Assembly (NCBI RefSeq): GCF_001040705.1
Contig: NZ_CVQP01000007.1
Location: forward strand, 27,815-91,814
Direction of reading: 5' to 3'
Length of the DNA stretch: 64,000 nt
Origin: Rhodococcus sp. RD6.2
Lineage (GTDB): Bacteria > Actinomycetota > Actinomycetes > Mycobacteriales > Mycobacteriaceae
Both the position numbers and the translations under genes were made by a program. The number at the start of each line of letters is the position of its first letter. Position 1 is the stretch's first letter. The notes beneath the pieces are model-generated. The model was not told where the DNA came from. It ran no database searches and worked only from the letters and a program-made list of their open reading frames with translations. This document shows, piece after piece, positions 411-25,676 of the stretch.

Positions 411-512
411 CGCCAATGAAAGAGCATGTTGGGCTGCAAGCAGATTGGATAGTCCACCCGTCGTTAGTCGCGCTTGAGATCGGCGCCAGATCACATCAAT
501 CTGGATGAGTTC
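411..512 (+). repeat. Dispersed repeat, copy A
   Basis: Divergent copy of the window's dispersed repeat (other copies at 2461, 17588, 18566, 22494, 24663 and 25557). It has the GGGCTGCAAGCAGATTGGAT core and ends with the hairpin CCAGAT-N7-ATCTGG (489-507) followed by GATGAGTTCC. The purine-rich head seen in other copies is missing. It faces copy B at 2461-2510, which is inverted, so the pair brackets the ECF41 operon. The rest of 380-777 holds no gene I can support; the open frames there are Arg-rich or shadows. Confidence 0.75.
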
Positions 513-777
513 CAGCTCAGTTCCCGTGTCGATGCGTTGTGGGGACGTTGAAGTTTGCGGCGTCGCCGGGACATCGCCTCCTCGGTCGACTGTTCTCCGC
601 GGCGGGGTGCCGTCGCGGCCGGCGCTTCTTGTGACGACCCCGGCAGGTGGAGTGCGTCGCGTCGAGGTCGATGCCGCCGCGATCGTATCCATCGAGTTCG
701 AGGAATCATCGCTGTATGTCGTTGTGGAACAAGAACCTTGGGCACGCGTGCCGGTTCCGAACTTCAGCCGAGGTGCG

Positions 778-1653
778 CTACCGTGCCAGCTCCGCCTCCT
801 CGTCGAGCCGGCTGAGCTTGTACGGGTTCGCGATCGAGAAGATGCGGGTGATCCGTCCGTCCTCGATCTCGAAGCTGATCGCGCCGGCGAGCGCGCCGTC
901 GATCTCGCCCCGGATCGCCGGATGGCCATTCACCCACGTGGGCCGCGCCTGGAACGGCAGGCCGAGCTTCGCGAGGCCACCGAGCAGGTAGCGGCTGATC
1001 TTGTCGGCGCCCACGATCGGGTGGCGAGCCGCGCCGCGCACGAAGCCGCCGCCGTCGGCGACCGACACCACATCGGGTGCGAGCACATCCATCAGGCCCT
1101 GCAGGTCGCCCGAGTTCACCGCAGCGACGAAACGGGCGATGACCGCCTCCTGTTCGGCTCGATCGGCCGTCACCCGCGGTCGCCGCGCGGCGACGTGTTC
1201 CTGTGCGCGGTGGGTGATCTGGCGAACGGCGGCCGTGGTCTTGCCGACCGCGGCGGCGATTTCGTCGTAGGGCACGTCGAACACCTCGCGCAGAACGAAC
1301 ACTGCGCGTTCGGTCGGCCCGAGTGTCTCGAGCACGGTGAGCATCGCGATCGACACATTCTCGGCGAGTTCGATGTCGTCTGCGACATCCGGGCTCGTGA
1401 GCAGTGGCTCGGGCAGCCACTGCCCGACGTACGACTCGCGTCGACGCGACATCGTGCGCAGTTGGTTCAGTGCCTGGCGGGTGACGACCCGCACGAGGTA
1501 GGCGCGTTCGTCGCGTATACCTGCGTGGTCGACGGCATTCCACCGTAACCATGACTCCTGCAGCACGTCCTCCGCGTCGGCCGCGGATCCGAGCAGTTCG
1601 TAGGCGACGGTGAAGAGCAGGGGGCGGTGGGTGACGAACGCGTCGTCGGTCAT
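778..1653 (-). CDS. ECF41-type RNA polymerase sigma factor with SnoaL-like C-terminal extension
   Basis: This 291-residue protein has sigma-70 region 2 (about residues 8-75) and region 4 (about 100-155), then a roughly 130-residue SnoaL-like domain. Two hallmarks of the ECF41 group are in the extension: DGGG at 200-203 and NPYKL at 276-280 (the family form is NPDKL). In ECF41 proteins the extension acts in place of a separate anti-sigma factor and binds core polymerase. The start is the ATG at 1653, which overlaps the stop of the upstream partner gene as ATGA, implying translational coupling. The partner gene and the promoter at 2368-2394 both fit the ECF41 assignment. It is a paralogue type of mycobacterial SigJ. 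The signal sensed is not visible. Confidence 0.93.
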   Translation of the reverse strand: MTDDAFVTHRPLLFTVAYELLGSAADAEDVLQESWLRWNAVDHAGIRDERAYLVRVVTRQALNQLRTMSRRRESYVGQWLPEPLLTSPDVADDIELAENVSIAMLTVLETLGPTERAVFVLREVFDVPYDEIAAAVGKTTAAVRQITHRAQEHVAARRPRVTADRAEQEAVIARFVAAVNSGDLQGLMDVLAPDVVSVADGGGFVRGAARHPIVGADKISRYLLGGLAKLGLPFQARPTWVNGHPAIRGEIDGALAGAISFEIEDGRITRIFSIANPYKLSRLDEEAELAR

Positions 1654-2303
1654 GACGTCGAGCCTACGGCCTTGAACGTGGTATCCGGCGGCTGCGGCCC
1701 GGGGGCAGATGTCGACGCAGGCCCGGCCGCGGTCGCCCGAGTCTCCAGAGGCGGGAGCTGACACGTGTCGGCGTAGCCTTCCGAGTGGATGCCGAGGGCG
1801 ACGTTCATGCGTGAACTCATGTTCATGAAGGCGACTTTGGCGGTGAGCTCGATCAGCGCGGCGGGGCCGAGTTCGGTGAGGAGTGCGGCCGACAACTCGT
1901 CGGTGACGGCGGGCGGTGTCTGGCTCATCGCCTCGGCGTATTCCATGACATGTCGTTCGACCGGCGTGAACACCGACGCTTCGCGCCAGTTCGGCACCTG
2001 CCTGGCTTTCGCCTCGTCGAGCCCGTCGTTGTGAGCTTTGTAGTAGTTGAAGTCGAGGCACCAGCTGCAGCCGATGTAGGCGGCCGTCGACATCACGGCA
2101 TAGCTTGCGAGATTGCGGTCGAGCTGGTCCAGCGCCTCGATCTTGCGGCCGATGCCCATAGACGCTCGCATGAGCGCCGGATGGTGGGCGAGCACGCCCA
2201 ACGAGTCCGGGACCTGGCCAAGCATCCGTCGGGATGCGATCTTCACGATCGTGCCGAAGAGGCCGGTGAGCTCGGTCGGCGGGATGCGGGTTGGTGTGGT
2301 CAT
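1650..2303 (-). CDS. Carboxymuconolactone-decarboxylase-like (AhpD fold) partner of ECF41
   Basis: A 217-residue protein with the AhpD/CMD fold pattern and a CxxC pair (C79, C82, in YIGCSWCLDF) followed by a conserved His (H91), as in peroxidase-linked members. ECF41 sigma factors are characteristically encoded next to a carboxymuconolactone decarboxylase, oxidoreductase or epimerase (the COE partner), and this is such a pair. The start at 2303 is preceded by GGAGGACACG. Its stop overlaps the sigma-factor start. The last 30 or so residues are Pro/Ala/Thr-rich and look like a degenerate extension. The in vivo substrate is unknown; a thiol-based redox role is inferred from CxxC. Confidence 0.88.
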   Translation of the reverse strand: MTTPTRIPPTELTGLFGTIVKIASRRMLGQVPDSLGVLAHHPALMRASMGIGRKIEALDQLDRNLASYAVMSTAAYIGCSWCLDFNYYKAHNDGLDEAKARQVPNWREASVFTPVERHVMEYAEAMSQTPPAVTDELSAALLTELGPAALIELTAKVAFMNMSSRMNVALGIHSEGYADTCQLPPLETRATAAGPASTSAPGPQPPDTTFKAVGSTS

Positions 2304-2367
2304 CGTGTCCTCCGGGAGATCGTCGACGGCCGGGGTTCTGTTTTCCCGGGTTGTCCGTCGGCATGAA

Positions 2368-2394
2368 GACACCGATCGACGCGTGGTTGTGACA
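2368..2394 (-). promoter_or_regulatory. ECF41-dependent promoter
   Basis: Reading the minus strand, TGTCACA (2394-2388) is followed after 16 bases by TGTC (2371-2368). Published ECF41 target promoters have TGTCACA, a 16-base spacer and CGTC, so this differs at one base. It lies about 65 bases upstream of the partner-gene start at 2303, which fits autoregulation of the operon by its own sigma factor. Confidence 0.8.
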
Positions 2395-2460
2395 TCCTCC
2401 TCGAGAACGCCCCGACAGAAATCGACCATGGATTGATCGTGGTTGGCCGACACTGCTCGA

Positions 2461-2510
2461 CCTAAGTGTGATCACCAACTGTTCAACCTATCCAATCCGC
2501 GTGCAGCCCA
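2461..2510 (-). repeat. Dispersed repeat, copy B (inverted)
   Basis: Minus-strand copy of the dispersed repeat. It has GGGCTGCACGCGGATTGGAT, then AGGTTGAACAGTTGGTGATC and ACACTTAGG, the same order as copies E and G. The head and the terminal hairpin are not recognisable. It lies just upstream of the ECF41 promoter and is inverted relative to copy A. Confidence 0.75.
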
Positions 2511-2560
2511 GACCGAACCGCCGGAGGTACAGCGGAGGTACGGGTAACCCCGGAAAACCG

Positions 2561-2597
2561 AAAGCCCCGACCAGAAAACGATCTGGTCGGGGCTTTT
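2561..2597 (-). terminator. Hairpin terminator, probably bidirectional
   Basis: AAAGCCCCGACCAGA and TCTGGTCGGGGCTTT form a perfect 15-bp stem around a 7-base loop, with a short T run on the plus side. It lies 41 bases past the stop of the minus-strand gene ending at 2639. Confidence 0.85.
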
Positions 2598-2638
2598 GCT
2601 TGACTTGAGGCCTCTTGTTGATGGCCTCAGGTTCGGGA

Positions 2639-3595
2639 TCAGTTCATGGTGCCCTGCATGGGGATGTAGATTTCGGCGGCTTCTACGAAGGCTGAGCCGG
2701 TGAGTTCGGCTAGGGCTAGTGATTCGTCTAGTTTGCGGAGGGCATTCTGGACGTAGGGGCGGTCGTCCCATTGGTCACCGATCGCGGTGAGGGGGGCGGT
2801 GTTGCGGGTAAGCCAGTCTCGGAAGGGGCGGATGTCCGAGGGGGACGCGTAGCCGCCGATGGCGTAGTTTTCGGGGATGGTCCAGTTCGAATCCCATTCC
2901 AGGGAAGGGAATTCGTCGGGGAGCACGCCGAGTAGCGGGGTGTTGTGGTCGGTCGGGGCGTAGCAGTCGGTGGAGGCGTTTTCGGCTAGTTCGGTGGGCC
3001 ACACGCGGCCGCGCTCGATCCAGCCGGGGAGAAGGGCTGCGAGGAATTCGACCAGGACGAACTGGGCATTTCCAGCGAGGGCGCTCGCGGCTTCGATCTC
3101 GTCGCCGTCGCCGTTGCGGATGGTGTCGCGGCCCGCACGCACGGCCGCGGCGGCTTCACGGAGCAGGTCGAGCTTCCAGCGGAAGCCGATCGCGAGACGT
3201 TCGTCGGCGGGGAGGTTTCCGCTCACCTTGGGTTCGACGTGTGCGAGCAAGGCGGGGTCTAGTAGGGTGATCTGGCTGCGGGCCAAGTCATCTACCTGGT
3301 CGACGGTCGCATTGCAGTACCGCACAACGGCTTCCGCGACGTCCTCCGAACGCTCGGCAGTCACGAAGAACGGCCGCCCCCATACGTGCAGGCTGGTATC
3401 GAACGCACCACCGGGGTTCGCCTGCATCACCCCGAGTCCCCACGCGTTAGCCCGGAACCGCACCTTAGCCTGTCGTACCGCGTCGGCAATCAGATCATCC
3501 AGATCGTCGTCATTCCCGCGCCCCGCCAGGAACGGCGTGACCCGCTCCTGCACCAACCGCATATCGACCGGATGAAAACTGATGTCGTAACCCAT
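2639..3595 (-). CDS. Uncharacterised cytoplasmic protein, 318 aa
   Basis: I do not recognise the family. The protein starts MGYDISFHPVDMRLV and has no signal peptide or membrane segment. It is acidic with many Trp/Asp/Glu, and has a Trp/Asp-rich stretch (EWDSNWTIPENYAIGGYA) about residues 240-260 and a final IPMQGTMN. The start at 3595 is chosen because GGGGGG lies about 8 bases upstream; the frame stays open to 3715 but the extra residues look like noncoding. It is a single transcription unit closed by the terminator at 2561. Related short proteins occur singly in actinobacteria, to my recollection, without assigned function. Codon use is like the intact genes, so it is probably expressed. 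Confidence 0.75.
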   Translation of the reverse strand: MGYDISFHPVDMRLVQERVTPFLAGRGNDDDLDDLIADAVRQAKVRFRANAWGLGVMQANPGGAFDTSLHVWGRPFFVTAERSEDVAEAVVRYCNATVDQVDDLARSQITLLDPALLAHVEPKVSGNLPADERLAIGFRWKLDLLREAAAAVRAGRDTIRNGDGDEIEAASALAGNAQFVLVEFLAALLPGWIERGRVWPTELAENASTDCYAPTDHNTPLLGVLPDEFPSLEWDSNWTIPENYAIGGYASPSDIRPFRDWLTRNTAPLTAIGDQWDDRPYVQNALRKLDESLALAELTGSAFVEAAEIYIPMQGTMN

Positions 3596-3675
3596 ATTCG
3601 GCCCCCCACTTGTCTCGGATCTTCCGCCGCCACAGTAACTACCGCCGCCGACACATACCCCCGCACCTCCGATGA

Positions 3676-4223
3676 TCATGAAATACACAGGGGCCTTCTC
3701 GACCTTTGCCTGCACGGTTTCATGATCGTCGAGCTCGCTGGCGAGGGTCGGGCTGAGCGGGCCCCGGTGTCGATGCGGATGCCCTTCGCGCTGGCCCAGG
3801 TCAGTCCGCCCCGTATCGCGATCGCCGGCACCCCGTCGAGCATCAGCTCCACCACCCGGCTCAGCGCGGCGTGGTCGAACTCGGGCCCGGCCCGCCGAGG
3901 ACCACCACCTCCGGGCTGTCGGTGTCGAACTCGATGCCGGTCATGTCCCCGGCGATGTCGCCGTGGTTGATCAGCAGGCAGCGCTGCCCCGGATGGACCT
4001 CGCGGAGGTACTCGGCGTTGAGCGCGGCGGCCGTGACGATCTCCTCGGCATCCACCGCCATGCCGCAGTCGCGCAGGGCCGCTGGAGGTGGTGTTGGTGA
4101 GGAAGGCGCGTGCGAGCCCGCGGTCGCGGACGGCGTCGAGGGCCGCGGCGGCCCCGCGAGGGGTTGCCACGAGGCGACCAGCACCCCGTCGATGTCGAAC
4201 AGCACGCCCTCGACCGGAGTCAC
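3676..4223 (-). pseudogene. Broken HAD-superfamily (IIA, NagD-like) phosphatase
   Basis: Pieces of one HAD hydrolase lie in two minus-strand frames. Frame one starts at 4223 with VEGVLFDIDGVLVASWQPL (motif I, DIDGV). The next piece shifts frame: AAALDAVRDRGLARAFLTNT (motif II, TNT). It then returns with ALRDCGMAVDAEEIVTAAAL and GIEFDTDSPEVVVLGGPGP, and shifts again to EFDHAALSRVVELMLDGVPA and GIRIDTGA. At least three frameshifts are needed, and the C-terminal region with the last catalytic Asp is missing or unrecognisable before 3676. Members of the family normally have about 260 residues. The gene is therefore decayed, unless the sequence has several local errors. Confidence 0.85.
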
Positions 4224-4464
4224 TGCTCACGCCCCCGGCTTCTCCGCGATAGGTGAACACCCCCGGCCATCTCCCGCCGGCCACGACATCTCTCTCTTCT
4301 CTCTTCTCTCGACTGACTCTCTTCCTCAATCAATCAATCTCGCTGTCTCGCCACACGGACCCCCGTCCTCCCTACTCCTGGTCCAACTCGATCTCGGTGC
4401 CGATGGCTACCTGCTGGGTTTCGTTCCCACAGACTCGGCCAAGGACATCAGCAAAGCCGGATCA

Positions 4465-4728
4465 TTAACTGTCGTTCGCCGAGGCTGGCATCGGGGTAAT
4501 GTCGGTCACCCAGTTCGGTTGCCGTGTCGGGATTGGCACACCGGTGATGGAGTCAATTCGGTGCGCCAACGCTCGCAGTGCGATGCGCGCGGTAGCGGGG
4601 TCGGTGACACTCGGGGCGGAGATCGCCTGCATCGCTGTCGCTGTGGCGCGAAGTTCCGGCTGATCGACGGCCACGGAGACAGGCTGTTCTCGGCCCGCGC
4701 TCAATGCTCGGATGCTATCGGTTCTCAA
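4465..4728 (-). CDS. Possible remnant ORF, 87 aa, unassigned
   Basis: A minus-strand frame with a protein-like middle (PELRATATAMQAISAPSV, then TARIALRALAHRIDSITGVP) and no recognised domain. No good ribosome-binding site is visible. It may be the end of a decayed gene. In the flanking 4224-4464 there is a partial repeat head on the minus strand (GGTGTTCACCTATC at about 4248-4261, with GAGAGAAGAGAGA at about 4290-4310) and otherwise nothing supportable. Confidence 0.2.
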   Translation of the reverse strand: MRTDSIRALSAGREQPVSVAVDQPELRATATAMQAISAPSVTDPATARIALRALAHRIDSITGVPIPTRQPNWVTDITPMPASANDS

Positions 4729-4801
4729 TGATGACGAGTTTCATCGGATGCACGAACTCGTCACTACACTCGGACCCCGACATGGAGCGAGAGGAAGTGA
4801 C

Positions 4802-5401
4802 ATGGCCGCATCGCCGCCGATCCAGCAGGTTAATCTCTACCTCCCGCCTTACATTCAGGCGGGCATCGCCGCGGGGCTGATGAAGCAGACGGGCGGGACT
4901 GTTCGCAACCTACAGGGGCAGATCGTCAAGCTCCTCGAGGAGGCTTCACTCGCAGAGAAGGCCCCTGCGAACGCGCAACGTGCCGCAGCGGCGATCCTGA
5001 GGGACAAGCGTGTCGTCACCGTCCTCGTGGTGACGACGACCATCGTAGGCGGCGCGACGGTCCTCGCTGTCCGGGATCGGCGTCAGGCCAAGAGATGCGT
5101 GGCCGAGCTCAACGCCTCACTGATCGCCTACCTTGAGGCGGCGCGTGATGCTCGGCTGGACGAGGTCACCATCGGCCGCCTGCTCGCTGACCTTGACGCC
5201 GCAGAGGCCCACTCGAAGCACGGGAACGTTGCAGTCGCTGCCACGTTGGTCGAACTGGTGATGGAGTACACGAGCAAGCTCGCTGAGGCCAACTCAGTCG
5301 AGTTGGAGGACCTCGACACGCCCTCAGCTGGAGAGGCCACAGTGGTGGACTTCCGCCGCCACCTCGAAGCCCAGCGCAGGATCTTCCGCCGCGCCGCCTA
5401 A
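4802..5401 (+). CDS. Uncharacterised protein with one membrane segment, 199 aa
   Basis: The protein begins MAASPPIQQVNLYLPPYIQA, followed by an Ala-rich helical region. A hydrophobic segment, VVTVLVVTTTIVGGATVLAV, lies at about residues 75-95, followed by basic residues (RDRRQAKR). The C-terminal 100 residues are helical and charged (LDEVTIGRLLADLDAAEAHS). This suggests a single-pass membrane protein with a cytoplasmic helical domain. The ATG at 4802 is preferred over the upstream in-frame start at 4712 because GAGAGGAAG lies just before it and the extra residues do not look protein-like. I do not recognise the family. It stands alone between decayed stretches. Confidence 0.6.
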   Translation: MAASPPIQQVNLYLPPYIQAGIAAGLMKQTGGTVRNLQGQIVKLLEEASLAEKAPANAQRAAAAILRDKRVVTVLVVTTTIVGGATVLAVRDRRQAKRCVAELNASLIAYLEAARDARLDEVTIGRLLADLDAAEAHSKHGNVAVAATLVELVMEYTSKLAEANSVELEDLDTPSAGEATVVDFRRHLEAQRRIFRRAA

Positions 5402-5698
5402 TACTCGACGGCCGACCAGGCCTGGTCCGCCACGGGCGAGAAGACCGGATGCCAGAATCCGATTCCGCGACGAGACTCGCCCGCCTCCGATCGCTCAGCT
5501 CCAGAAGTTGCGACCGACCGCAGCAGGGTTCCAACGGCCGCGCTGTCCGCAGCCGTTCAAGGGCACCTGTTTTCGCTCAGCCAGATGCTCTCCGGCTCAG
5601 CGAAACGCGGCGGTGCCGTCGACCACAGCCCCCGACCGGGCCGAGCACGAGCGCAGACTGCCGCGCTTCCACACCGGGACGAGCGCGACCTCCGCTAC

Positions 5699-5830
5699 GT
5701 GCTCATGACCCTCGCCGCGCTCAATGGCCACTCGGAACTCTCGGCAGTGATCGACGACCTCGACGACGAAGAGACATGCCCGCGCTACGCGGCACATCTC
5801 TGGGGAGCGAGCGGGGACGCCGACAGCTGA
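5699..5830 (+). pseudogene. Fragment of an unassigned gene
   Basis: In one frame LMTLAALNGHSELSAVIDDL, then DDEETCPRYAAHLWGASGD, reads like the end of a real protein, but the sequence before it does not. I treat it as a C-terminal fragment. The remainder of 5402-6249 holds no gene I can support. It includes a purine-rich stretch (5920-6005) and short GGATGGAAT tandem units at 6062-6081. Confidence 0.25.
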
Positions 5831-6249
5831 TTCGTCCGCGTAGGCCGCACTCGTGTTCGTCATGCGAGCCGCCGATGGCAGCGTCACGTTGCGCGGTGAG
5901 CTCGGGCCTATCCAAGCGTACTAGAGAGACGAGAGAGAAAAGCGAGCCGGCCGAGCGATGGTGGCCATGGAGACCGGTAGAGACGGACAGAGAGACGCGC
6001 CACGCCCATGAGCGTCTGACTAACTGAATAAATGTAGAGAGCGCGCGTCAGGCGGCGAGGCTGGATGGAATGGATGGAATGGCACGCACGCCCTGGTGTT
6101 CATCAGATGCCGATTCCGTGAGGGCAAACCTGCGAGCATGCACGCCAAATTTCCCGGCCGTCCGAACAGAGGGACCGTTCTCATCGACACCCAACTGCCT
6201 TGTTGAGTGCAGGTTTGCGCTACACCGCAGCGGGCCCGGAGAATGGCGG

Positions 6250-7146
6250 CTAAGGGATCGGCTGGGGAGCGTGATCGGTTACGTGTTGGACCACGTCGGC
6301 ATAGCTTCGAAAAAGGCGTGGACGAGCCGGAGCCGGATTGAGGTTTAGGAGGACGGACCAGCACTCGGCCGTCAGGTTGCGGGCGCGGGTTCCCGGCCAT
6401 GGGTGTGGAAGCAACTCTCGCGGGAGAAGTGGGTCTGGGTTCATCGCGCGAGTGAATTCAGATGCCAGCTCTATTGCGATGGTGAGGGTATCTGTCTCAG
6501 TCAATCCTATGGTGTCTCGAAGACGCAGAAGACGTTGTTGCGCAACATTGATGAGCTTCGCATGTCCATCGGCGATGTTGTCGAGCGGCCAAAGCCGTGC
6601 CGCGATCGTACGGGGATCTTTTGTTCCACCAACTGTGAGATCTGAGGTGGTGCATGAGGTCACATGGTCGGTGACCTCCAGTTTGGACGCAAGAGCTTGG
6701 ATGTGTGATCCCCAAGGATTCGGTGAAATATAAAGGCCGCCTTGAATTGACGCACCACCGAGGTGCACGATCCCGTCTCGCATGGCGTCTCGGGCTTGCC
6801 TGGCCGTCTCGGGAATCGCGAAGGCGACGAGGTGCCAGTTCCCGTCCCAGGGTGCTTCGCCGCGGTCTTGCGCGAACATGTATCGCACGAACTCAACATT
6901 GGGCTCGATCGAGCTTTCGGCCCCCTCTGAAGCGCGCAGAACGGCCCGGCGGCCCCGTCCTTCTTGGGTGAACTGACCGTCCGTAACAAGCCGACGAATG
7001 CACAGCCGCACCTGCTGGTCCGTCATTCCCAGCGCATTCGCCACCGAATAGAGCTCGTTCGCGTGAAGCGTGGCATCTTCGCGAACCATGCTCTCCACGA
7101 GGACACGCGTCGGCACCTCGACGTTGTAGTCGTCGCTTTTACTCAT
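6250..7146 (-). CDS. PaaX-family transcriptional regulator
   Basis: A 298-residue protein with an N-terminal winged-helix region (ANALGMTDQQVRLCIRRLV, residues about 36-55, then TDGQFTQEGRGRRAVL) and the PaaX central pattern WDGNWHLVAFAIPE about residues 98-112, followed by RDGIVHLGGASIQGGLYISP. PaaX proteins repress catabolic operons and respond to CoA thioesters; no effector can be deduced here. The ATG at 7146 is preceded by AGGAGTGACAAA. It follows the EthA-like monooxygenase on the same strand with a 162-base gap containing a palindrome at 7188-7197. Control of that monooxygenase or of itself is inferred. The length matches PaaX proteins (about 300 residues). Confidence 0.88.
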   Translation of the reverse strand: MSKSDDYNVEVPTRVLVESMVREDATLHANELYSVANALGMTDQQVRLCIRRLVTDGQFTQEGRGRRAVLRASEGAESSIEPNVEFVRYMFAQDRGEAPWDGNWHLVAFAIPETARQARDAMRDGIVHLGGASIQGGLYISPNPWGSHIQALASKLEVTDHVTSCTTSDLTVGGTKDPRTIAARLWPLDNIADGHAKLINVAQQRLLRLRDTIGLTETDTLTIAIELASEFTRAMNPDPLLPRELLPHPWPGTRARNLTAECWSVLLNLNPAPARPRLFRSYADVVQHVTDHAPQPIP

Positions 7147-7187
7147 TTTGTCACTCCTGTGGCTGCAGCTGGAACGCTCAACAATAG

Positions 7188-7197
7188 TACGATCGTA
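7188..7197. promoter_or_regulatory. Palindrome TACGATCGTA upstream of the PaaX-like gene
   Basis: A perfect 10-bp palindrome 42 bases upstream of the regulator start, in the position of a promoter or operator. Related CTATCGTATCG and CGATCGCATAG half-sites occur upstream of the BVMO gene (about 11,130-11,172), suggesting a shared regulator. This is inference from sequence only. Confidence 0.4.
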
Positions 7198-7308
7198 TTT
7201 GAAGTGACAGTTCTGGCGCTTTTGCAGGGTTGCGACGAAGCCGCCAGCGCGTCGTCAGCATGGTACGCGCACGGCCAGGCATCGAGGGCCCGAGACTTGT
7301 ACGGCCGC

Positions 7309-8806: not shown

Positions 8807-8843
8807 ATCAGGTAGCTCCTTGGTTCGAAACTGATGGCTTGCG

Positions 8844-8885: not shown

Positions 8886-8899
8886 CTGTGGGTGGCTTG

Positions 8900-17587: not shown

Positions 17588-17712
17588 GAGAGGAGAGGGA
17601 TGTTCACCTATTGCGGGTCGTTCTGGGCCTCTTGCGGAGTGGGTTGGCAGACCAGTCGGCAACTACACATGTGAAGGGCGCCAGATCACACCATTCTCGA
17701 TGAGATTCTCCT
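17588..17712 (+). repeat. Dispersed repeat, copy C
   Basis: It has the purine-rich head GCGAGAGGAGAGGG, then ATGTTCACC and a short frame reading MFTYCGSFWASCGVGWQTSR that ends at a TGA. The terminal stem is decayed (CCAGAT retained, partner ATTCTCG). It aligns with copies E and G without gaps over about 105 bases. It lies upstream of the lipoprotein gene. Confidence 0.75.
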
Positions 17713-18365: not shown

Positions 18366-18565
18366 GGGTTGCCTGCATGTCGGGGCTCGATGCCTGTGCC
18401 GAGCACTGACGCGTATTGGCCCGGTGCCCGCCGTAGACCTGCGCACGGATGATCTACCGATCCCGCGCGCTGTTACGCGTCTGTCCCGCCACAACGCCGG
18501 CGGGAGCGCGGCTGGGCGAACCTGTGCCGACCGCGCCACCCGGCCCGCGGGCGGGCCGTCGCCGC

Positions 18566-18611
18566 GGGGTATTCACCAATGGCAGAGCATGCTGGGCTGC
18601 AGGCTGATTGG
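18566..18611 (+). repeat. Dispersed repeat, copy D (truncated)
   Basis: CGGGGTATTCACCAATGGC, then GCATGCTGGGCTGCAGGCTG ATTGG, after which similarity stops. The short frame reads VFTNGRACWAAG and then a stop. The copy overlaps the 3' end of the minus-strand membrane gene at 18573 and supplies its last residues. Confidence 0.75.
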
Positions 18612-19265
18612 CTTTCTGACCGCCAAGAACCGAGCGGTCCAGACGGTCAGCCCGATCCCTATGACCACAACGCAAACGACTGCGGCTGCGCCGATGAGGT
18701 ATGTCGAGATAGACGTGTAGAAGTTCGTCGTCTCCGTCAAGGCAACCGCGGCGCCAGCACTGAGTGCGGCACCTATCGGTAGCAGCACAGCGAGCCACCG
18801 CACGGTCGAAATAGCGCGAGGATCGCCAAACGTGTGAAGGACTCGCCACACGAACAGCAGCGTGCCCAGGTATCCCAGAATCCCGGACGACACGTACAGA
18901 AGGCCTTCGTACTGCCCCATCCGGATAGCTGACAGCGGCGACAGTACGGAGAGGACCACGAGCAGCGGAGTTGCCAGACCAGCCACGAGCCCGAGAACTG
19001 CCGCCGGCACAGCAAGTTCCAACCGCAAGGCGCGGCCACACAGGCCCCGCTCGCATGCTCGATCCCGGAGGATCTGTTCACTGACGTCATCGAGGACTGC
19101 CGGCGTGCCGTGACCGTTTCGGTTCGCGACTCGGAGTTCAGTCTCGAGTTCCGAAAGCAGTGCTCTGCGATCGGCCCCCTGGACACCGGCACGGCGCCAG
19201 AGGCCATCTGCCCGACGGGTGATCTCGGACCGTTCGGCACTGTCAGCGCGCGCGATGATGTTCAT
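18573..19265 (-). CDS. Membrane protein with helical N-terminal domain, 230 aa
   Basis: The first 75 residues are helical and charged (RRADGLWRRAGVQGADRRAL, then LSELETELRVANRNGHG), resembling the short regulatory prefix domains found on some actinobacterial membrane proteins. Four hydrophobic segments follow: AVLGLVAGLATPLLVVLSVL, LLYVSSGILGYLGTLLFVW, LAVLLPIGAALSAGAAVAL and YLIGAAAVVCVVVIGIGLTV. The ATG at 19265 (MNIIARAD) is preferred over 19322. The last 11 residues (ISLQPSMLCHW) come from the inverted dispersed repeat copy D, so the original C-terminus has been replaced. Function unknown. Confidence 0.65.
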   Translation of the reverse strand: MNIIARADSAERSEITRRADGLWRRAGVQGADRRALLSELETELRVANRNGHGTPAVLDDVSEQILRDRACERGLCGRALRLELAVPAAVLGLVAGLATPLLVVLSVLSPLSAIRMGQYEGLLYVSSGILGYLGTLLFVWRVLHTFGDPRAISTVRWLAVLLPIGAALSAGAAVALTETTNFYTSISTYLIGAAAVVCVVVIGIGLTVWTARFLAVRKPISLQPSMLCHW

Positions 19266-19483
19266 ACGATGTCCGTTCCACTGTCGATTCGTCCCGACTG
19301 GCAGGCCGCGCCCTCGAAGCACTCGGTGGGAATCGAGTGCGCCGAGCGAATCCCACCCCTATGAACACGTTTGAGTCGCCAGCAGCGACCCAAGCTACGG
19401 ACAAGCATGACCCACGGGACGGTAATCGAACAGAACGTACCAAATGACCGGTTTTGATCTTGGGGATGAAGCTGTGATCTCGA

Positions 19484-20530
19484 TCAGATGCGGTCGCCAA
19501 CGGAGGGGACGTACCCCTCGGCGATCCAGGAGATGTAGCTGACCGTGGACGGTAGCGGGACCGGGAACTCGGTGGCGCCCACGCCGGTCGCGATCTCCTC
19601 GTAGCCGAGAAGTGCTCCCGTTGCCTCGTCGAAGATCAGGACCGTCTTCCGATCGCCGGCCTGGGTGGCGACAGCGATGCCGGCACGCCCTGCCCGATCG
19701 GTGACGGCTCCGAGCACGTCGATCCCGGGTTGGTCGGCGAGGACACCGAGGTAGGCCGCCTGGAGTTCGGCTGAGACGATCTGGGACGTCCAGGTGTCCT
19801 TGTACTCGTCGAACCATTGCTGCGCGGTCCGGCCGGACCCCGCGGCCAGCAGGCGGCTGCGCAGCTCTGACACTGACCGTGTGTCCGCGTCCAGTCGGGG
19901 TCGAGGAAACACGTCGGGGTGAAGAATCAACGACTGCTGCACACCGTCCTCGAGACTGTCCAACCGGCCCGCCCCGGTCTCGTCGCGCCATTGCTCGCGT
20001 TCGATCTCCGCGGTCCATCCCTGGTCGAGGATGGTTCCGTCGGTGGTCCGGGCGCTGGACAGAAACCAGTTGCGGGATTTGACGTACTCGTATGCCCCGG
20101 AACCCGGTGCGGGAGGCTGCCGTTCGGCCTGTGCGGCGATGTGACGCAACAGGTCGGCGGACGAGACGGGGCGGCTGTAGGCGACGAAATGCAGCATCGG
20201 CACAGACCCGGCCGATGGGGGGAACACCGCTTGCCCCGGGTCCAGCGGGGGCAGGGTGAAGGTCGCCGAGGGAGGCTCGGACTGTGTCGTCTCGCGGGGA
20301 CTGTCGACGATCAGTGCGCCTGCGGCCGCGACGCCGGCCACGAGGACAACCGCGGCCGCCGCGGCGACCGCGATCCGGTGTCTCGGCGTGCCTCGCCGGG
20401 AGCCGTCCGCCCGATCGTGATCGTGGGCGAGAATCTGCTGGAGTCCACCTTCCCGTGGCACGAACTCCACGTTCGGGGGCACCGGGTTGTGGCGTTCCAT
20501 GCTCTCGAGCGGTGGGCGTCGGTTGGTCAT
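19484..20530 (-). CDS. Membrane-anchored CU044_5270-type protein
   Basis: A 348-residue protein with a cytoplasmic N-terminus of about 50 residues, one membrane segment (IAVAAAAAVVLVAGVAAAGA at about 52-71) and an extracytoplasmic domain with the LPPLDPGQAVFPPSAG and YEYVKSRNWFLSS elements. I know this arrangement from CU044_5270-type proteins that follow ECF sigma genes in actinobacteria. Its ATG overlaps the stop of the sigma gene (ATGA, 20530-20527), so the two are translationally coupled. An anti-sigma or sensing role is plausible from position but not shown. Confidence 0.78.
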   Translation of the reverse strand: MTNRRPPLESMERHNPVPPNVEFVPREGGLQQILAHDHDRADGSRRGTPRHRIAVAAAAAVVLVAGVAAAGALIVDSPRETTQSEPPSATFTLPPLDPGQAVFPPSAGSVPMLHFVAYSRPVSSADLLRHIAAQAERQPPAPGSGAYEYVKSRNWFLSSARTTDGTILDQGWTAEIEREQWRDETGAGRLDSLEDGVQQSLILHPDVFPRPRLDADTRSVSELRSRLLAAGSGRTAQQWFDEYKDTWTSQIVSAELQAAYLGVLADQPGIDVLGAVTDRAGRAGIAVATQAGDRKTVLIFDEATGALLGYEEIATGVGATEFPVPLPSTVSYISWIAEGYVPSVGDRI

Positions 20531-21069
20531 GTCTCGTCCTTCCCAGCGCGGATCGGTGATGCAGGGGCTGCGTCGTCGCGTGCGTCCAGGGCCGCCTCGA
20601 GTCGTCGACGAGCCCGGTGGTGACGGACCGCGAACGCTGCGGTGCTGCAACCGGACACCTCGGCAGGTTGTCGGTAGGGCAGCCCGTCCCAGACGGTCAG
20701 CATCAGCGTTTCTCGGTCCTGGTCTGACAACGAGTCGAGAGCGGTGAGCACTGTTATCCGCTCGACAACGTCGTGGTCGGCGCCGGGTGAGGTGGCAGCG
20801 CCAACGTCGAGAGTTGCGGCGACCTCCGAGGCGAGGGTGATCTGTCGGACATCGCGGCGGCGCTGCTCCGACAGGGCATTGCGGGTGGCGACCAGCAACC
20901 AAGGCAACGGGTCAGCCGGCAACTGATGGAGCTTCTTCCAGGCGACAAGGAAGGCGTCGTTCGTCGCTTCCTCGGCAGCGGTGTCCACCGCTCGCCTCGC
21001 CGCGTAGGCCCGCACCCGCGGATACAGCCGCCGATACATCTCGGTGAACCGCGCTTCATCCGTCCCCAT
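20527..21069 (-). CDS. ECF RNA polymerase sigma factor, 180 aa
   Basis: Region 2 is at about residues 8-70 (FTEMYRRLYPRVRAYAARRA, then AEEATNDAFLVAWKKLHQLP and LPWLLVATRNALSEQRRR). Region 4 is at about 105-155 (LTALDSLSDQDRETLMLTVW and YRQPAEVSGCSTAAFAVRHH). No C-terminal extension is present, unlike the ECF41 protein at 778. The ATG at 21069 (MGTDEARF) is chosen as the family-like N-terminus; the longer frame to 21108 adds Gly-rich residues. It is coupled to the downstream membrane protein, its likely regulator. Confidence 0.88.
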   Translation of the reverse strand: MGTDEARFTEMYRRLYPRVRAYAARRAVDTAAEEATNDAFLVAWKKLHQLPADPLPWLLVATRNALSEQRRRDVRQITLASEVAATLDVGAATSPGADHDVVERITVLTALDSLSDQDRETLMLTVWDGLPYRQPAEVSGCSTAAFAVRHHRARRRLEAALDARDDAAPASPIRAGKDET

Positions 21070-21683
21070 CCAACCCCCTCCGCCACACGCTTCACCTTGT
21101 AACGGCACGGCCGGGGGCAGAACTTACATGCAGCGTGAACACCAACCGTTCTGTGCTGTGCGATGGCAGGCACGGGCCCTCAACGCCATTCGATCGCGCC
21201 AACACACCTTTGCTGCCCGCCGACGAGTCTCGTCCGCACACTGCCCGCCCCCACTGTCTCCATCATCGTCCCGGCAGGCGCTCGCCGTGTCCGATCTCGT
21301 CGGCCCGAAAGCCACGCACCCCTGCCCGAACTCGTTTTCTGACATGCAGTGATGACACGTCCCCTCGCTCATCTGGGCCATTGGGGAAGCAGCAGGCGGG
21401 GGCCGGTCAGTTCGGGGGTCCGATCCAGTGGTGAGGTGTGCGGACCAGTGGCGGCGGTCACCGTCGCGGCGGTCCCGACGGCGGCGGGATTCCATCGTCC
21501 GGGCCCGACGTCGAATCGGCGGGCGCTGATCGTGATGGTGAGGTTGACGTTCTCGGTCGTGAGAGCATCCGCGACAACGGTGCTCGTGAACTCGTCACCA
21601 GCTGGTCACGAGCGCGGGAAATCAGTGGGCTGCGCGGATCCGGACAGCCAGGCGTCAGGGTGCGGTCTTGGCTGACATAGGAA
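21070..21683. other. Gap without a supportable gene
   Basis: This 614-base stretch between the sigma gene and a membrane-protein gene contains only Arg/Ser/Pro-rich open frames typical of noncoding GC-rich DNA. It should include the sigma operon promoter near 21,070-21,130. I see no repeat or hairpin of note. Confidence 0.4.
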
Positions 21684-22106
21684 TCACCGATCGGCGAGCT
21701 CTGATTCAGGGAAGTAGAGGTAGGCACTGATGAATGCGATGGCCGCGATCACGGCGATCGAGAGGAAACCGAGCCCGCTCACTTCAGCGACGGTCGCTCC
21801 GGTTGCGGCAGCCACCGCGATCGTGAGGGCGGTGACGCTGCTGAAGAGGATCCGCCACTGCTGGACGTTCGTTGGGCCAGGACGCTTGTGTGCGGTATTG
21901 AGTACTCCCCGGCCGGCGGCAGCGGCCAGCCACCCGAAGAACAGCCCGAAGGGGATCGAGATGATCAATCCGAGCAGTGCGCCGAGGATCATTGACGGAA
22001 GGTCGGAATCGAAGAACTGGACAGCGACATAGATGCCGAACACTCCGCCGCACACGAGCGGCACTGCATATGCGGAGCGGCGCCAGTTCTGACCGCGGGG
22101 TGTCAT
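21684..22106 (-). CDS. Small membrane protein, 140 aa, unassigned
   Basis: Four hydrophobic segments: AVPLVCGGVFGIYVAVQFF, MILGALLGLIISIPFGLFFG, FSSVTALTIAVAAATGATVA and FLSIAVIAAIAFISAYLYF. A hydrophilic loop carries HKRPGPTNVQQW. The last residues are PESELADR. No family is recognised. The ATG at 22106 gives a plausible N-terminus (MTPRGQNWRRSAY), but the ribosome-binding site is weak. It stands alone. Confidence 0.6.
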   Translation of the reverse strand: MTPRGQNWRRSAYAVPLVCGGVFGIYVAVQFFDSDLPSMILGALLGLIISIPFGLFFGWLAAAAGRGVLNTAHKRPGPTNVQQWRILFSSVTALTIAVAAATGATVAEVSGLGFLSIAVIAAIAFISAYLYFPESELADR

Positions 22107-22169
22107 AGCCGGAGAGTATCACTTTCTGATGGTGGCGCATGTGATGTAACTGACTCGAAATCCGTTGTC

Positions 22170-22199
22170 GCCGTTAGTCTATTTGTCACGACTAACGGC
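22170..22199. promoter_or_regulatory. Inverted repeat GCCGTTAGTC-N10-GACTAACGGC
   Basis: Perfect 10-bp arms around a 10-base loop. There is no T run, so it could be an operator upstream of the minus-strand membrane gene (start 22106) or a hairpin past the fragment ending at 22256. Confidence 0.5.
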
Positions 22200-22255
22200 G
22201 CCAACGGCATTCTCATTCGGCTTGCGTTGCGTGCGTTCGTGCACTCACTACGGTG

Positions 22256-22360
22256 CTAGTTCGTGGTGCAGATTCCCTGGTATGCGCAGATGTTCGCGCC
22301 GAGTTGGTTCATGAAGGGGCTGCCCCCGGCTTTGTTGACATTGTGAACCGTCCGGGGCTT
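22256..22360 (-). pseudogene. C-terminal fragment, secreted-protein-like
   Basis: The minus strand reads TGNKPRTVHNVNKAGGSPFM, then NQLGANICAYQGICTTN and a stop. The even composition and the C-x5-C spacing look like a real exported-protein end, but no in-frame start or signal peptide precedes it. I treat it as the tail of a lost gene. Confidence 0.35.
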
Positions 22361-22493
22361 ATTGCCGGTCCTATGCTGGCGACGGCTGAAAGCGAGCTGA
22401 GCCCGGAGGAGTCCGGGTTCTTCGTCATCCTGCTCGCGGTCGCGGGAAGCGAAGCCACCGGGAACGCGCTCCCCATCGCTAGCTAGCTAATGC

Positions 22494-22621
22494 TAAGAGA
22501 GGAGAGAGAATGGTGTTCACCTATGGCGATTCATTCTGGGCTGCATGCGGATTGGATAGGTTGACCAGTCGGTAATCGCACTTAACGAGGGCTCCAGATA
22601 ACACAAATCTGGATGAGTTCC
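22494..22621 (+). repeat. Dispersed repeat, copy E (full length)
   Basis: Head AAGAGAGGAGAGAGAATG, start-like GTGTTCACC, then a 20-codon frame reading VFTYGDSFWAACGLDRLTSR and TAA. After ACTTAACGAGGGCTC comes a hairpin CCAGAT-N7-ATCTGG and GATGAGTTC. With copy G this is the reference copy. The following 22622-22921 holds no gene I can support. Confidence 0.8.
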
Positions 22622-22921
22622 ATACTGCTGATGGCCGGGGAGTCCGATTGGAAGAATCTCCGCATCGAGCCAGGTCGGCCGATCGAGTCTGGCAGATATG
22701 GACACGACACGGTCAGCAGCGACGACGTCCACAACCCAAGCGCGCAGACACCCGGGTGACCATTTGGAAACTGCTGCTGTGCGCGATCCTGATGACCAGC
22801 GGTCGGGTCATCCGCCGCGTCCTCGACACCCTGCGCCTCGACGACGTCGAAGCATCCATTCCGACTACTTCGCCGTCGCCCCCAGATTCATCGTTTCCGG
22901 TGGAACCGCAAGACGGCGCCA

Positions 22922-23857
22922 TCATTTTGGGGGCAGGATCTCCGTCACGGGATGTCCATCTCTCGGACCGGCCTCTTGCTTTCGCGGTTCAAGGCCGTCG
23001 AGCAGAGCGCAGTTCAACTCTGCGGCGGGGCTCATGGGCATGGTGTGGTGCGTTGCTCCGTCAACGATGATCGTGCGTAGCAGTGGGATCGATTCGGTGA
23101 CGGTCGCCAATCGCCGGCTGTCGTGTACCTTGCTGCCCTCCGCAAGAATCACCGTCGTTTCGACCGCCAATGCGTCGAGCGCATTTCGCTTGGGCCGCTT
23201 GGGAACAACGGTTCTCGACTTCGGGAAATGCTCTGCGCCACGGGCGTCCAGATCGAGCCAGTCCTCATCGATGTGCTGCCCGTTGGTCTCCCAGCGGATG
23301 AAGTCGCCTCTGCGCTTCTCGGTGGGCCGCAGAAGCAACGGAATGGCGCGGGCCAGGTACTGCGCTCGCATGCCGGCGAAGCACGAACTTGGGTCGAGTA
23401 GCACCAGGTTCTGGACACGATCGGGCTCGCGCAGCGCGTAGGCGAGCGCGATCATTGCGCCATAGGAGTGGCCGACGAGGCTGAAAGCTGCCAGACCGGC
23501 GGCGGTGGTGACATCGTCGAGCCATGACAAGAGGTCATCGACTGTCCGCGGGTCTTTGTCGCCCGCGACGCTCCGGCCGGCATCGCCGATCAGATCCACC
23601 GCGAAGACCCGGTATCGATCGGCGAGAGCGGCGACATTCTGGAACCACACCGTCGAGGTCGCCCCACCTCCGGGTAGGAGCACCAGAGGCGGGGCATCTG
23701 CCGGCCCGCAAATGTTGACTCGGGTCGTTCCGTGCTGCGTTTCGAGGTCGACGCTGGTGACGTCGACCGGCCACTTTTCGAGAACTAGGTCGTATGCACC
23801 ATAGAAGGCGACTCCTTCCGGGGTGGTGGCGAAGTCGACTGTCGACAAATGGGACAT
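22922..23857 (-). CDS. Alpha/beta hydrolase, 311 aa
   Basis: VLLPGGGATSTVWFQNVAAL is the oxyanion region, GHSYGA the nucleophile elbow (Ser about residue 138), and a likely acid and His lie in VILAEGSKVHDS and DGATHHTMPMSP. The His is doubled and in the usual position. The C-terminal PRDGHPVTEILPPK is extra. The ATG at 23857 has CGAGGAGAACCGG before it. The gene is divergent from a MarR gene with a palindrome in between, so MarR repression is likely. Epoxide hydrolase, esterase or haloalkane-type activities all share this fold; the substrate cannot be given. Confidence 0.85.
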   Translation of the reverse strand: MSHLSTVDFATTPEGVAFYGAYDLVLEKWPVDVTSVDLETQHGTTRVNICGPADAPPLVLLPGGGATSTVWFQNVAALADRYRVFAVDLIGDAGRSVAGDKDPRTVDDLLSWLDDVTTAAGLAAFSLVGHSYGAMIALAYALREPDRVQNLVLLDPSSCFAGMRAQYLARAIPLLLRPTEKRRGDFIRWETNGQHIDEDWLDLDARGAEHFPKSRTVVPKRPKRNALDALAVETTVILAEGSKVHDSRRLATVTESIPLLRTIIVDGATHHTMPMSPAAELNCALLDGLEPRKQEAGPRDGHPVTEILPPK

Positions 23858-23876
23858 CCGGTTCTCCTCGGGCAGA

Positions 23877-23896
23877 TAGCTCGATTGATCGAGATA
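23877..23896. promoter_or_regulatory. MarR-type operator
   Basis: CTCGAT-TG-ATCGAG (23880-23893) is a perfect 14-bp palindrome, extended to 20 bases with one mismatched pair. A second TCGAGATA lies about 20 bases away. It sits between the divergent hydrolase and MarR genes and is the likely operator. Confidence 0.65.
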
Positions 23897-23954
23897 ATGG
23901 ACCTGTCGAGATAGTAGATTGTTGAGGCAATGCTGTCGACCACAGGAGATCGTG

Positions 23955-24437
23955 ATGGATACCGGAAGTACGCCGGCCGAGGATTCGCTCAGTACGGTGC
24001 ACCGGCTTCGGGCGCTGACGGTCGAGTTGCACCTTCTGGGCGCGGAGTTTGGGCGAGTACATGGCTTGCATTCCACCGACGTCCGAGCACTGATCTGTCT
24101 TCTTGACGCCGAACGCAGCAGCCGCCCGGCGACCCCGAGTTGGCTGGGGGAGCAGCTCCATCTCAACTCCGCATCAGTGACCGCACTGATCGACCGAATG
24201 GAAAAGGCGGGACATGCGCGGCGTCAACGGGACTCGCAGGACCGCAGAAGGGTCTTCGTTGAGGTGACTCCTGAAGCCGTGGAGCTCGGTTGGGCGTTCT
24301 TTGGGCCAGTGATCGCGAATGCGTTGGCTGCCATTGGCACGTATAGCCCTCGGGAGGTGGAGACTGTGGTCAGATTTTTGACTGACATGCAGGCTGCTGT
24401 CGAAGGCACTCGCCGGGATTCCGACATCAACGAGTAG
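23955..24437 (+). CDS. MarR-family regulator
   Basis: A 160-residue protein with the MarR winged helix-turn-helix: HGLHSTDVRALICLLDAE, then SWLGEQLHLNSASVTALIDR, MEKAGHARRQRDSQDRRRVF (the wing with D-x-R-R) and VEVTPEAVELGWAFF. Flanking helices would form the dimer. The ATG at 23955 has CAGGAGATCGTG upstream. It is divergent from the alpha/beta hydrolase and probably represses it through the palindrome at 23877-23896. Ligand unknown. Downstream 24438-24631 is without a gene. Confidence 0.9.
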   Translation: MDTGSTPAEDSLSTVHRLRALTVELHLLGAEFGRVHGLHSTDVRALICLLDAERSSRPATPSWLGEQLHLNSASVTALIDRMEKAGHARRQRDSQDRRRVFVEVTPEAVELGWAFFGPVIANALAAIGTYSPREVETVVRFLTDMQAAVEGTRRDSDINE

Positions 24438-24631
24438 CGGCAGCGGCGTCGGTCGCGAACGCAATTAACGGCTTTCACCCCTCCCGACTTGCGAACGCTC
24501 ATCGAGGACGTGCCTGAGTTCAGGAGATTGACCGGGCTGATCACATCGCCTCGCGAAGCAAATACTGAGCAGGACTGGTTGGGCTGGAAGGCCGCCGCGA
24601 TTGGATGTCCTTCATGGATCTTCTGGAGCGA

Positions 24632-24708
24632 TGGATGGATGGATGGTGCGGGCGGATGGATGGAGGGGTCTTCACCAATGGAGGAGCGTGCTGGGCCGCA
24701 TGCGGATT
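24632..24708 (+). repeat. Dispersed repeat, copy F, with GGAT tandem units in front
   Basis: A run of GATG/GGAT units (24632-24667) takes the place of the purine-rich head. It is followed by GTCTTCACCAATGGAGGAGC and CTGGGCCGCATGCGGATT. The short frame reads VFTNGGACWAACGF. Similarity ends at about 24708 and no terminal hairpin remains. Confidence 0.7.
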
Positions 24709-24773
24709 CACTAGGCAGCCCGCCTCGATGAACCCCGATGGTTCCGACCAGAAGCGGTTGACGCCTCGTTCGA

Positions 24774-24995
24774 TCACAGCGCAGGGACCGAGTATCGGCG
24801 GGGGACAGTGATATCGCTGATCAGAATCGCCCGGCCTCGGAAGGCGAGGGAGCGCAGACCGCGGACCACGGCTGTAACGCCGACGACCAGCGGCTGCCAG
24901 TACACCTTCCGGTCGGGCACGGCTACCCCGAGCGCGGCAACGGCGGCCGACGTCGCGATCAACCCGGTGGCCGCGGAACCGCCCCGGACCACCAC
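24774..24995 (-). CDS. Possible small membrane protein, 73 aa
   Basis: Two hydrophobic stretches, AATGLIATSAAVAALGVAV and WQPLVVGVTAVVRGL, and a C-terminal ISDITVPRRYSVPAL. The only start is a GTG at 24995, directly beside the inverted repeat at 24997-25032. Protein-like but short. It may be a fragment. Divergent from the broken gene at 25072. Confidence 0.35.
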   Translation of the reverse strand: MVVRGGSAATGLIATSAAVAALGVAVPDRKVYWQPLVVGVTAVVRGLRSLAFRGRAILISDITVPRRYSVPAL

Positions 24996-24996
24996 A

Positions 24997-25032
24997 TCGC
25001 TGACCGGTCAACGATCCTTGACCGGTCAGCGA
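24997..25032. promoter_or_regulatory. Perfect 15-bp inverted repeat with nested palindromes
   Basis: TCGCTGACCGGTCAA and TTGACCGGTCAGCGA are perfect arms around CGATCC. Each arm contains the palindrome TGACCGGTCA. It lies between two divergent reading frames (24995 minus, 25072 plus), the position of a dimeric-repressor operator pair. Confidence 0.65.
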
Positions 25033-25071
25033 TTGGTAGTCGGATAGTGAGAAGCAACGATATGGTTCGGT

Positions 25072-25430
25072 GTGCCCGAAATTGCTAGCCGGCGTCGCAC
25101 CCAACCATCGCCGCCTCGCATTGTCTACGAAGCCCTTACTAACCCGGACCGTGACCCCGTTCGTCCGTGGCTGATTCTGCACAACGACGAACAACGTCCC
25201 CGATCGCAGAAGCTGTCGAACCGAACCTTGTCGTCTGGACCTCAATCTGGCCATGGCGACCGGATGCACGGATCCGCTTCGACATCACTGGCCCACCACG
25301 CTGCAGCACAACTCTGTGCTGGACATCGATCGTCGACGAACCGGTCCCGGACGGGGAAACTACCGTCCGCATGCGCAAGCGAGTGAACGAACTCATCAAC
25401 GCGAACCTGCGCTTCACGTTCGGTCAATAG
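25072..25430 (+). pseudogene. Frameshifted small protein of unknown family
   Basis: Frame one reads PEIASRRRTQPSPPRIVYEA, then LTNPDRDPVRPWLILHNDEQ. Near 25,195-25,215 the protein continues in another frame: IAEAVEPNLVVWTSIWPWRP, DARIRFDI and TVRMRKRVNELINANLRFTF, ending GQ. The two parts join into one coherent protein of about 118 residues. I recall similar small actinobacterial proteins with PSPP, RPDARIRF and LINA.LRYTFGQ elements but no assigned function. One frameshift breaks the frame, so it is a pseudogene or contains a sequencing error. Confidence 0.65.
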
Positions 25431-25556
25431 TCATTCGAACGAGGATCCGCTTACGGCGTTCGCCAATCGTTCCAACTGCCGACATGAATGGATCGCGAAC
25501 TGGGACAAGGTCGCTTTAGGGGCGCGGCATGGCCAGCCACCCACGGCTGATTGATT

Positions 25557-25676
25557 TGAGAGAGGGGTGTTCACCTATGGCGGGGTGTGTTGGGCTGCAT
25601 GCGGATTGGATACATCAACCAGTTGGTATTCACACTTAGTGAGGGCTCCAGATCACACAAATCTGGAGGAGTTCTG
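25557..25676 (+). repeat. Dispersed repeat, copy G (full length)
   Basis: Head TGAGAGAGGG, GTGTTCACC, then a frame reading VFTYGGVCWAACGLDTSTSW that stays open about 17 more codons. The terminal hairpin is CCAGAT-CACACAA-ATCTGG, then GAGGAGTTC. It points at the 3' end of the acyl-CoA ligase gene. The stretch 25677-25880 shows nothing else. Confidence 0.8.

Follow-up and report, generated by a model that had tools for sequence, protein, structure and literature searches.

Short repeats in a Rhodococcus genome as probable left ends of transposon islands stacked at a tRNA-Gly gene

We analyzed a 64,000-nucleotide stretch of the Rhodococcus sp. RD6.2 genome (contig NZ_CVQP01000007.1, C7:27815-91814; hereafter the window), which carries a family of short dispersed repeats. 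These repeats very probably mark the left ends of transposon islands that carry cargo and occupy, in a single orientation, one specific site: the 3' end of the transfer RNA (tRNA) gene tRNA-Gly(CCC), next to dcd. The islands look like part of an apparently undescribed actinobacterial transposon family at the 3' ends of tRNA and transfer-messenger RNA (tmRNA) genes. Our broader reading, to which we assign a probability of roughly 0.6, is that these are phylum-wide, undescribed and Tn7-independent heteromeric transposons, whose DDE transposase has taken over dead tyrosine integrases to serve as interchangeable readers of tRNA and tmRNA 3' ends. Exchanging the reader would then switch the element to another target (Gly, Ser, Leu, Arg, Ala, Met, Tyr or tmRNA). 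All genomes used were drafts, and the analysis was made from sequence.

Left and right ends of stacked islands

All seven repeats listed in a preliminary description of the window were located by an nhmmer profile search (window positions equal the contig C7 coordinate minus 27814), and the gap-free alignment reported for three of them was reproduced by the repeat search. Judged by sequence, the seven look like intact or truncated copies of a 111-bp transposon left end, termed Lend, with the outer tip GGTGTTCACC. The copies at 22512..22622 (+; E 7e-34) and 25565..25674 (+; E 2e-30), the latter closest to the tRNA, are full length; the copy at 17599..17706 (+; E 9e-24), with GAGAGGAGAGG just before it, is nearly so, and the one at 411..514 (+; C7:28225-28328; E 6e-21) lacks its first 7 positions. 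Only the outer half is present at 18567..18620 (+; E 6e-8) and at 24666..24721 (+; E 2e-8), and the latter directly follows a TGGA-rich tract (24630..24665, +; read from the sequence) that resembles copies of the tRNA 3' flank. The truncated copy at 2461..2528 (-; E 3e-14) is the sole inverted one of the 11 in the array. A pattern of the repeat core with up to two mismatches gave 8 matches against 0.96 expected, 6 of which were repeat copies. Across the 5.57 Mb of the source genome (G000), a search with the repeat found 12 matches at E<=10, the last two of them weak, and 10 at E<=0.008, with 8/10 of the latter in C7:9-54 kb. As the preliminary description had proposed to look for, copies occur in other genomes of the genus: within a sampled set of related genomes, 5/101 carried the repeat at E<=0.001, the source genome included, although one of these five (G061; 31 bp) is probably a chance match. 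Plasmid and phage collections gave no repeat match at E<=1e-5.

Sequence words containing GGTGAACACC led to a second repeat of about 130 bp, the right end or Rend, which has the tip GGTGAACACC and ends with GGGTGAACACCC, the reverse complement of the Lend tip. The window holds one Rend copy at 29806..29935 (+; C7:57620-57749; nhmmer E 1e-33), which also ends with GGGTGAACACCC and lies 32 bp from the 3' end of tRNA-Gly(CCC). This target gene (29968..30039, -; identified by ARAGORN, Rfam RF00005 and the sequence itself) turns its 3' end towards Rend and has no encoded CCA. The junction spacer between the two (29936..29967, +; read from the sequence) ends with GGAAGAGAGAGA and carries an altered TGGA flank. 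On the opposite side of the tRNA lies dcd, encoding dCTP deaminase (30127..30711, +; Pfam DCD, E 1e-46), a conserved flank across the target gene.

The arrangement of both ends can be seen in R. tukisamuensis (G003), where seven stacked junctions have the order Rend, spacer of 7-18 bp, Lend, and where the two ends delimit five units, each 1.1-1.9 kb long, as well as two islands measuring 14.9 and 31.6 kb. Islands of 1.1-31.6 kb are stacked as Lend-cargo-Rend-Lend-cargo-Rend towards the tRNA. The best-kept one (44758-59694 in G003) has inverted tips complementary at 13/14 bases and a 7-bp duplication, TGTGGAG. A small unit of the same genome (C24:11816-13119) retains the last 65 transposase codons before its Rend and therefore looks like an internally deleted derivative. 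Moreover, a 2.1-kb unit is common to the window and R. maanshanensis (C7:50326-52422 and G002:C32:36025-38119, 92.8% identity); it starts exactly at the Lend at window position 22512 and stops 58 and 7 bp, respectively, before the next Lend. Throughout five tRNA-anchored contigs (G000 C7, G001, G002 C32, G003 C24 and G004), 32/35 Lend copies share the same orientation. We infer that the window itself represents a pile of older islands, of which little beyond the ends is recognisable. A subtelomeric origin was dropped, as a tRNA adjoining dcd forms the end of the arrays and the far side is syntenic.

Two further observations concern such arrays. On G003:C36 (L046/L047, 17.3-23.4 kb), small units carry, on their minus strand, related open reading frames for short, secreted-protein-like products that may constitute a family of cargo genes. 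In G192, a genome of another genus (L192/L193), several tips resembling Lend, headed by TGGA or GAGA, occur within about 20 kb before tRNA-Gly, so stacked arrays are not confined to Rhodococcus.

The probable target site at tRNA-Gly and the purine-rich heads

The position of Rend at this tRNA recurs in other genomes. In R. tukisamuensis, R. spelaei (G005), G031 and Antrihabitans stalactiti (G046), Rend abuts the 3' end of tRNA-Gly(CCC) beside dcd, while in G000 and G004 a spacer rich in TGGA and GAGA separates the two. G192 and G222 likewise have Rend at tRNA-Gly, and G291 has a worn form of it. Among these genomes the dcd side is conserved, and on the other side they have only scattered blocks in common.

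The sequence just before Lend links the repeats to this tRNA. TGGA, the reverse complement of the TCCA end of the tRNA, stands within 12 bp upstream of 27/43 Lends, compared with a background of 3.35%. The tRNA flank of G000 reads GAGAGAGA, and TGGA is the flank in most other genomes seen. Accordingly split counts were obtained upstream of Lend: GAGAG occurs within 15 nt in 6/9 copies of the G000 array versus 3/33 in other genomes (Fisher p 0.001), and TGGA in 1/9 versus 26/33 (Fisher p 0.0004). The purine-rich heads of Lend thus resemble, by sequence, the tRNA 3' flank of their own genome, as expected of a target duplication, which measures 7 bp in the clearest cases. The preliminary description had taken the purine-rich head for a ribosome-binding site; the match of the GAGAG heads to the altered tRNA flank would explain this impression. 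A retroelement similar to a short interspersed nuclear element, with TGGA as its tail, was dropped because the tail matches the tRNA 3' flank.

The target gene itself varies. In G000 and G005 (L069, around 10050), tRNA-Gly has no encoded CCA, GAGA replaces TGGA, and the gene has 72 instead of 74 bases; several relatives keep CCA. In these two genomes, the 3' end of the tRNA may have been altered by insertion. G001 (L105/L076), which had no match in the repeat search of relatives, has a TGGA/GAGA tract beside its tRNA and, about 12 kb away, a decayed Lend together with part of a Rend; the tRNA site may be largely emptied.

A different explanation of the repeats, namely a short conserved peptide or a leader-peptide RNA, had been suggested by a reading frame that is alike across copies. 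This likeness arises because the DNA itself is similar. In 36 near-full copies from four genomes (G000, G002, G003 and G004), column diversity over the first 18 codons was flat (0.150, 0.130 and 0.120 at codon positions 1, 2 and 3), with no third-position excess, and a stop within 33 codons occurred in 32/36 copies in the proposed frame, 32/36 in frame 0 and 34/36 in frame 2. The terminal hairpin is present in 4/7 window copies (one with 2 mismatches) and missing from the three truncated ones; over 25 copies we found 0 compensatory changes, and the paired fraction was 88.6% in real and shuffled sequences. Rfam gave no match at the repeat copies. With neither a codon signature nor stem covariation, the small frame and the hairpin as an RNA element were dropped, and a peptide or cis-acting RNA is hardly credible. 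The absence of a transposase, stated earlier, holds for the window, but not for the genome, where remnants of the transposase gene TnpC (see below), and only remnants, lie further left at C7:15910-16113 and 23670-23940. The suggestion of a mobile element or gene-border recombination site came close to the truth, since the repeats look like left ends of islands. Overall, the preliminary observation was partly confirmed and its interpretation partly supported. Separately, Rfam reports a ZMP-ZTP riboswitch at window 25809-25887 (+; 42 bits against a threshold of 39), which has no obvious same-strand gene downstream and may be a chance match.

A transposase with recombinase-like partners at tRNA and tmRNA genes

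Complete elements, including those of R. tukisamuensis, carry the genes TyrA, TyrB and TnpC next to Rend. TnpC (about 555 amino acids) is a distantly IS1182-like DDE transposase; its sole NCBIfam match is NF033551 (IS1182) at E 3.7e-5 and 22.8 bits, far below the family cut-off of 270, and comparison with PDB gave no convincing match. Nevertheless, its DDE residues are kept together with their RR..E context (D 26/27, D 30/30 and E 30/30 of the rows with letters). TyrA and TyrB are paralogous and tyrosine-recombinase-like. All 5/5 TyrB members matched Phage_integrase at E<=0.1 (best 1.5e-4), and profiles of both proteins matched XerA, XerD and Int chains weakly, the best PDB hits being XerA for TyrA and Int for TyrB, both at E of about 0.003. 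The kinship of TyrA to tyrosine recombinases is judged from these Xer profile matches and from its similarity to TyrB. The catalytic residues are largely lost in the Tyr-like proteins: the box I Arg is found in 17/33, the box II Arg in 33/33 and the box II His in 1/33, and the full RHRY set occurs in 0/32; of these columns, the active tyrosine, placed by sequence alignment, is the least secure.

Pfam scans of TyrA, TyrB and TnpC returned either no match or weak ones to Phage_integrase, families of the DDE_Tnp_1 type and, at chance level, one TPR. In these scans of the three genes, no match to the Tn7 families TnsB, TnsC and TniQ appeared. Some elements (L067, L068, L065 and L041) show a further conserved frame before TyrA that appears helix-turn-helix- or antitoxin-like by eye only.

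TnpC relatives were found in 19/401 genomes of the family, 5/298 of the order, 8/296 of the class and 8/396 of the phylum; the class sample used a looser threshold and contained two genomes repeatedly. A Tyr-like open reading frame lies directly upstream of TnpC in 18/18 loci searched. In the order, class and phylum samples, 18/21 distinct loci (13/15 from phylum and order, 5/6 new ones from the class) are closely followed by a tRNA (16) or tmRNA (2) gene whose 3' end points towards the transposase, and the upstream flanks of these 21 loci contain no tRNA or tmRNA. The tRNA identities comprise Leu, Ser, Gly, Tyr, Met, Arg and Ala. The distance from the TnpC stop to the tRNA was 185-257 bp at the 12 places measured; for the broken gene L181, a second reading of the gap gives 495 bp. 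Of the three loci without such a gene (L171, L183 and L239), L171 lies on a contig ending 637 bp downstream. As a control, 0/30 loci of ordinary IS1182 transposases (NF033551; 23 genomes, among the 52 matches listed) had a tRNA or tmRNA in their flanks of up to 1.5 kb, some of which were cut by contig ends.

Finally, we scanned 18 elements for left-end duplications of the matching RNA's 3' sequence and scored them against a mismatched null. Three scores (27, 27 and 26, for Ser CGTGGCG, Gly TGTGGAG and Leu CAGAGTG) exceeded the null maximum of 25, Gly CGGAGAG equalled it with 25, and one Ser and one Arg element, both at 24, exceeded the 95th percentile of 23. Other Ser, Leu, Met and Arg sites offered candidates on visual inspection, but these fell below this bar.

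Several results weigh against our reading. In the scan, 12/18 elements did not rise above the 95th percentile of the null; this null is lenient, since it was scanned over no more than 20 kb per element and some of the real searches extended further. Spacers between stacked islands vary, and a clean 7-bp duplication is limited to some of them. Rends away from a tRNA occur in R. zopfii/G262, in G002:C39 and in the first G046 copy, and two G000 Lends lie far off (C7:621703 and C9:94304), with no Rend in the DNA fetched around them. An age gradient along the arrays was tested and discarded, as Lend decay did not depend significantly on the distance to the tRNA (Spearman p 0.30-1.0, four arrays). 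A Pfam search at E<=0.5 returned nothing for TyrA of G003, the short flanks of L175, L176 and L178 yielded no Tyr-like gene, and the role of target chooser is inferred. In the family sample, a copy lies directly at a tRNA in only 9/19 genomes; that of G250 sits at a tRNA-Ala 3' fragment, and the other 9 are fragments, at contig ends or at other sites. The tRNA-Ala site of G250 (L163, 7.6-10.1 kb) holds the transposon and an adjoining, seemingly ordinary integrase island with a partial tRNA copy.

Mechanism, alternatives and comparison with known systems

The retention of the DDE residues in TnpC together with the loss of the RHRY set in its partners suggests that TnpC transposes and that the dead recombinases read the target. 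TnpC would cut and join both ends, and the Tyr-like proteins, bound to the 3' end of the tRNA or tmRNA gene, would recruit it to that position. With each further insertion at this site, older islands would be pushed outward, where decay sets in, and repeated insertion and excision would leave TGGA/GAGA tracts.

Tyrosine integrases, for which tRNA and tmRNA 3' ends are the classic sites and natural target class, are usually held responsible for genomic islands at tRNA genes. One alternative is that TyrA or TyrB integrates ordinary islands, with TnpC as a passenger and the short repeats as neighbourhoods of att sites. The target (18/21 loci), the recombinase-like nature of both proteins and a tyrosine near the expected place in TyrA speak in its favor. 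We consider this quite improbable, however, in view of 0/32 full RHRY sets and a box II His missing in 32/33 proteins while the DDE residues of TnpC are kept, the inverted tips of the best-kept elements, and the steady 185-257 bp at which TnpC sits beside the tRNA where one is present. It is also conceivable, though rather unlikely, that the Tyr-like proteins serve as end-binding or circularisation cofactors and that recognition of the tRNA 3' end is a property of TnpC itself. In the right ends, a motif recurring at intervals of about 21 bp (read by eye) could seat a tyrosine-recombinase-like dimer, and the divergence of TnpC goes with the target. This has to be set against the absence of tRNA linkage among the ordinary IS1182 transposases of our control, the affinity of tyrosine integrases for such 3' ends, and the precedent of TnsF (PMC10293859). 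Non-autonomous repeats resembling miniature inverted-repeat transposable elements (MITEs), or an integron-like attC array, moved by some unknown enzyme, would fit same-orientation repeats about 1 kb apart with small open reading frames in between. Such an origin is very improbable: Lend is one end only and Rend differs from it, the two together bound units, and the elements bearing TnpC have the same ends. The attC array was dropped because Lend and Rend are two different ends.

If the heteromeric reading is true, a DDE transposon seems to fill the niche of the integrase islands, with the integrase kept as a dead DNA reader, and one chemistry serves many sites and builds tandem arrays of genomic islands. 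How a transposon gains a new, harmless target would become testable within a single many-target family. In addition, Lend and Rend give borders to island arrays that are now annotated as scattered genes and repeats.

Known systems share individual features with these elements. Islander describes tRNA-borne integrase islands with tRNA and tmRNA genes as their site; there, active tyrosine integrases catalyse, and inverted transposon ends are not part of the description in the sections consulted (PMC4383910). RIT and Tn554-like elements have adjacent tyrosine-recombinase genes, the latter also in Actinobacteria including Rhodococcus, but the excerpts describe tyrosine recombinases alone with no DDE partner, and RIT proteins keep a possible catalytic motif (PMC3414803). 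RIT elements comprise three adjacent tyrosine recombinases, whereas two Tyr-like genes and a DDE gene are found here. The eukaryotic Dada DNA transposons are DDE elements with fixed sites in tRNA and small nuclear RNA genes, 6-7 bp duplications and tandem insertions; compared by description, they differ in inserting inside the gene, and the passages available describe no tyrosine-recombinase partner (PMC3706591). Of the Tn7-like CRISPR-associated transposons (CASTs), types I-D and I-B2 are DDE transposons attached near tRNA genes, and I-D uses TnsD to insert at a distance of about 30-33 nt from the tRNA, past its end, whereas the elements described here abut the tRNA end (according to parts of PMC10293859). 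With the IS1182 family they share the DDE core and the RR..E signature of TnpC; the Tyr-like partner genes, the large cargo and the tRNA linkage set them apart. The word IS1182 is absent from the main text of PMC10293859, and among the matches listed from open-licence papers, no title or opening of an abstract brings together an IS1182-like transposase and tyrosine-recombinase-like partners at the ends of tRNA genes.

The closest analogy is offered by TnsF of the Tn7-like Tn6022, and by Tsy, where, according to the passages considered, a catalytically dead tyrosine recombinase selects one fixed target site for a DDE transposon (Faure et al. 2023, PMC10293859). By analogy with this precedent, target selection by the Tyr-like proteins appears plausible; judged by sequence, they too are tyrosine-recombinase relatives with a lost active site. 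Tn6022 is Tn7-like and targets comM, as stated in the same excerpts, while here a single IS1182-like DDE enzyme is associated with tRNA and tmRNA 3' ends. The islands ending at the tRNA-Gly of Rhodococcus would represent a second case, independent of Tn7, of an inactive tyrosine recombinase used for targeting.

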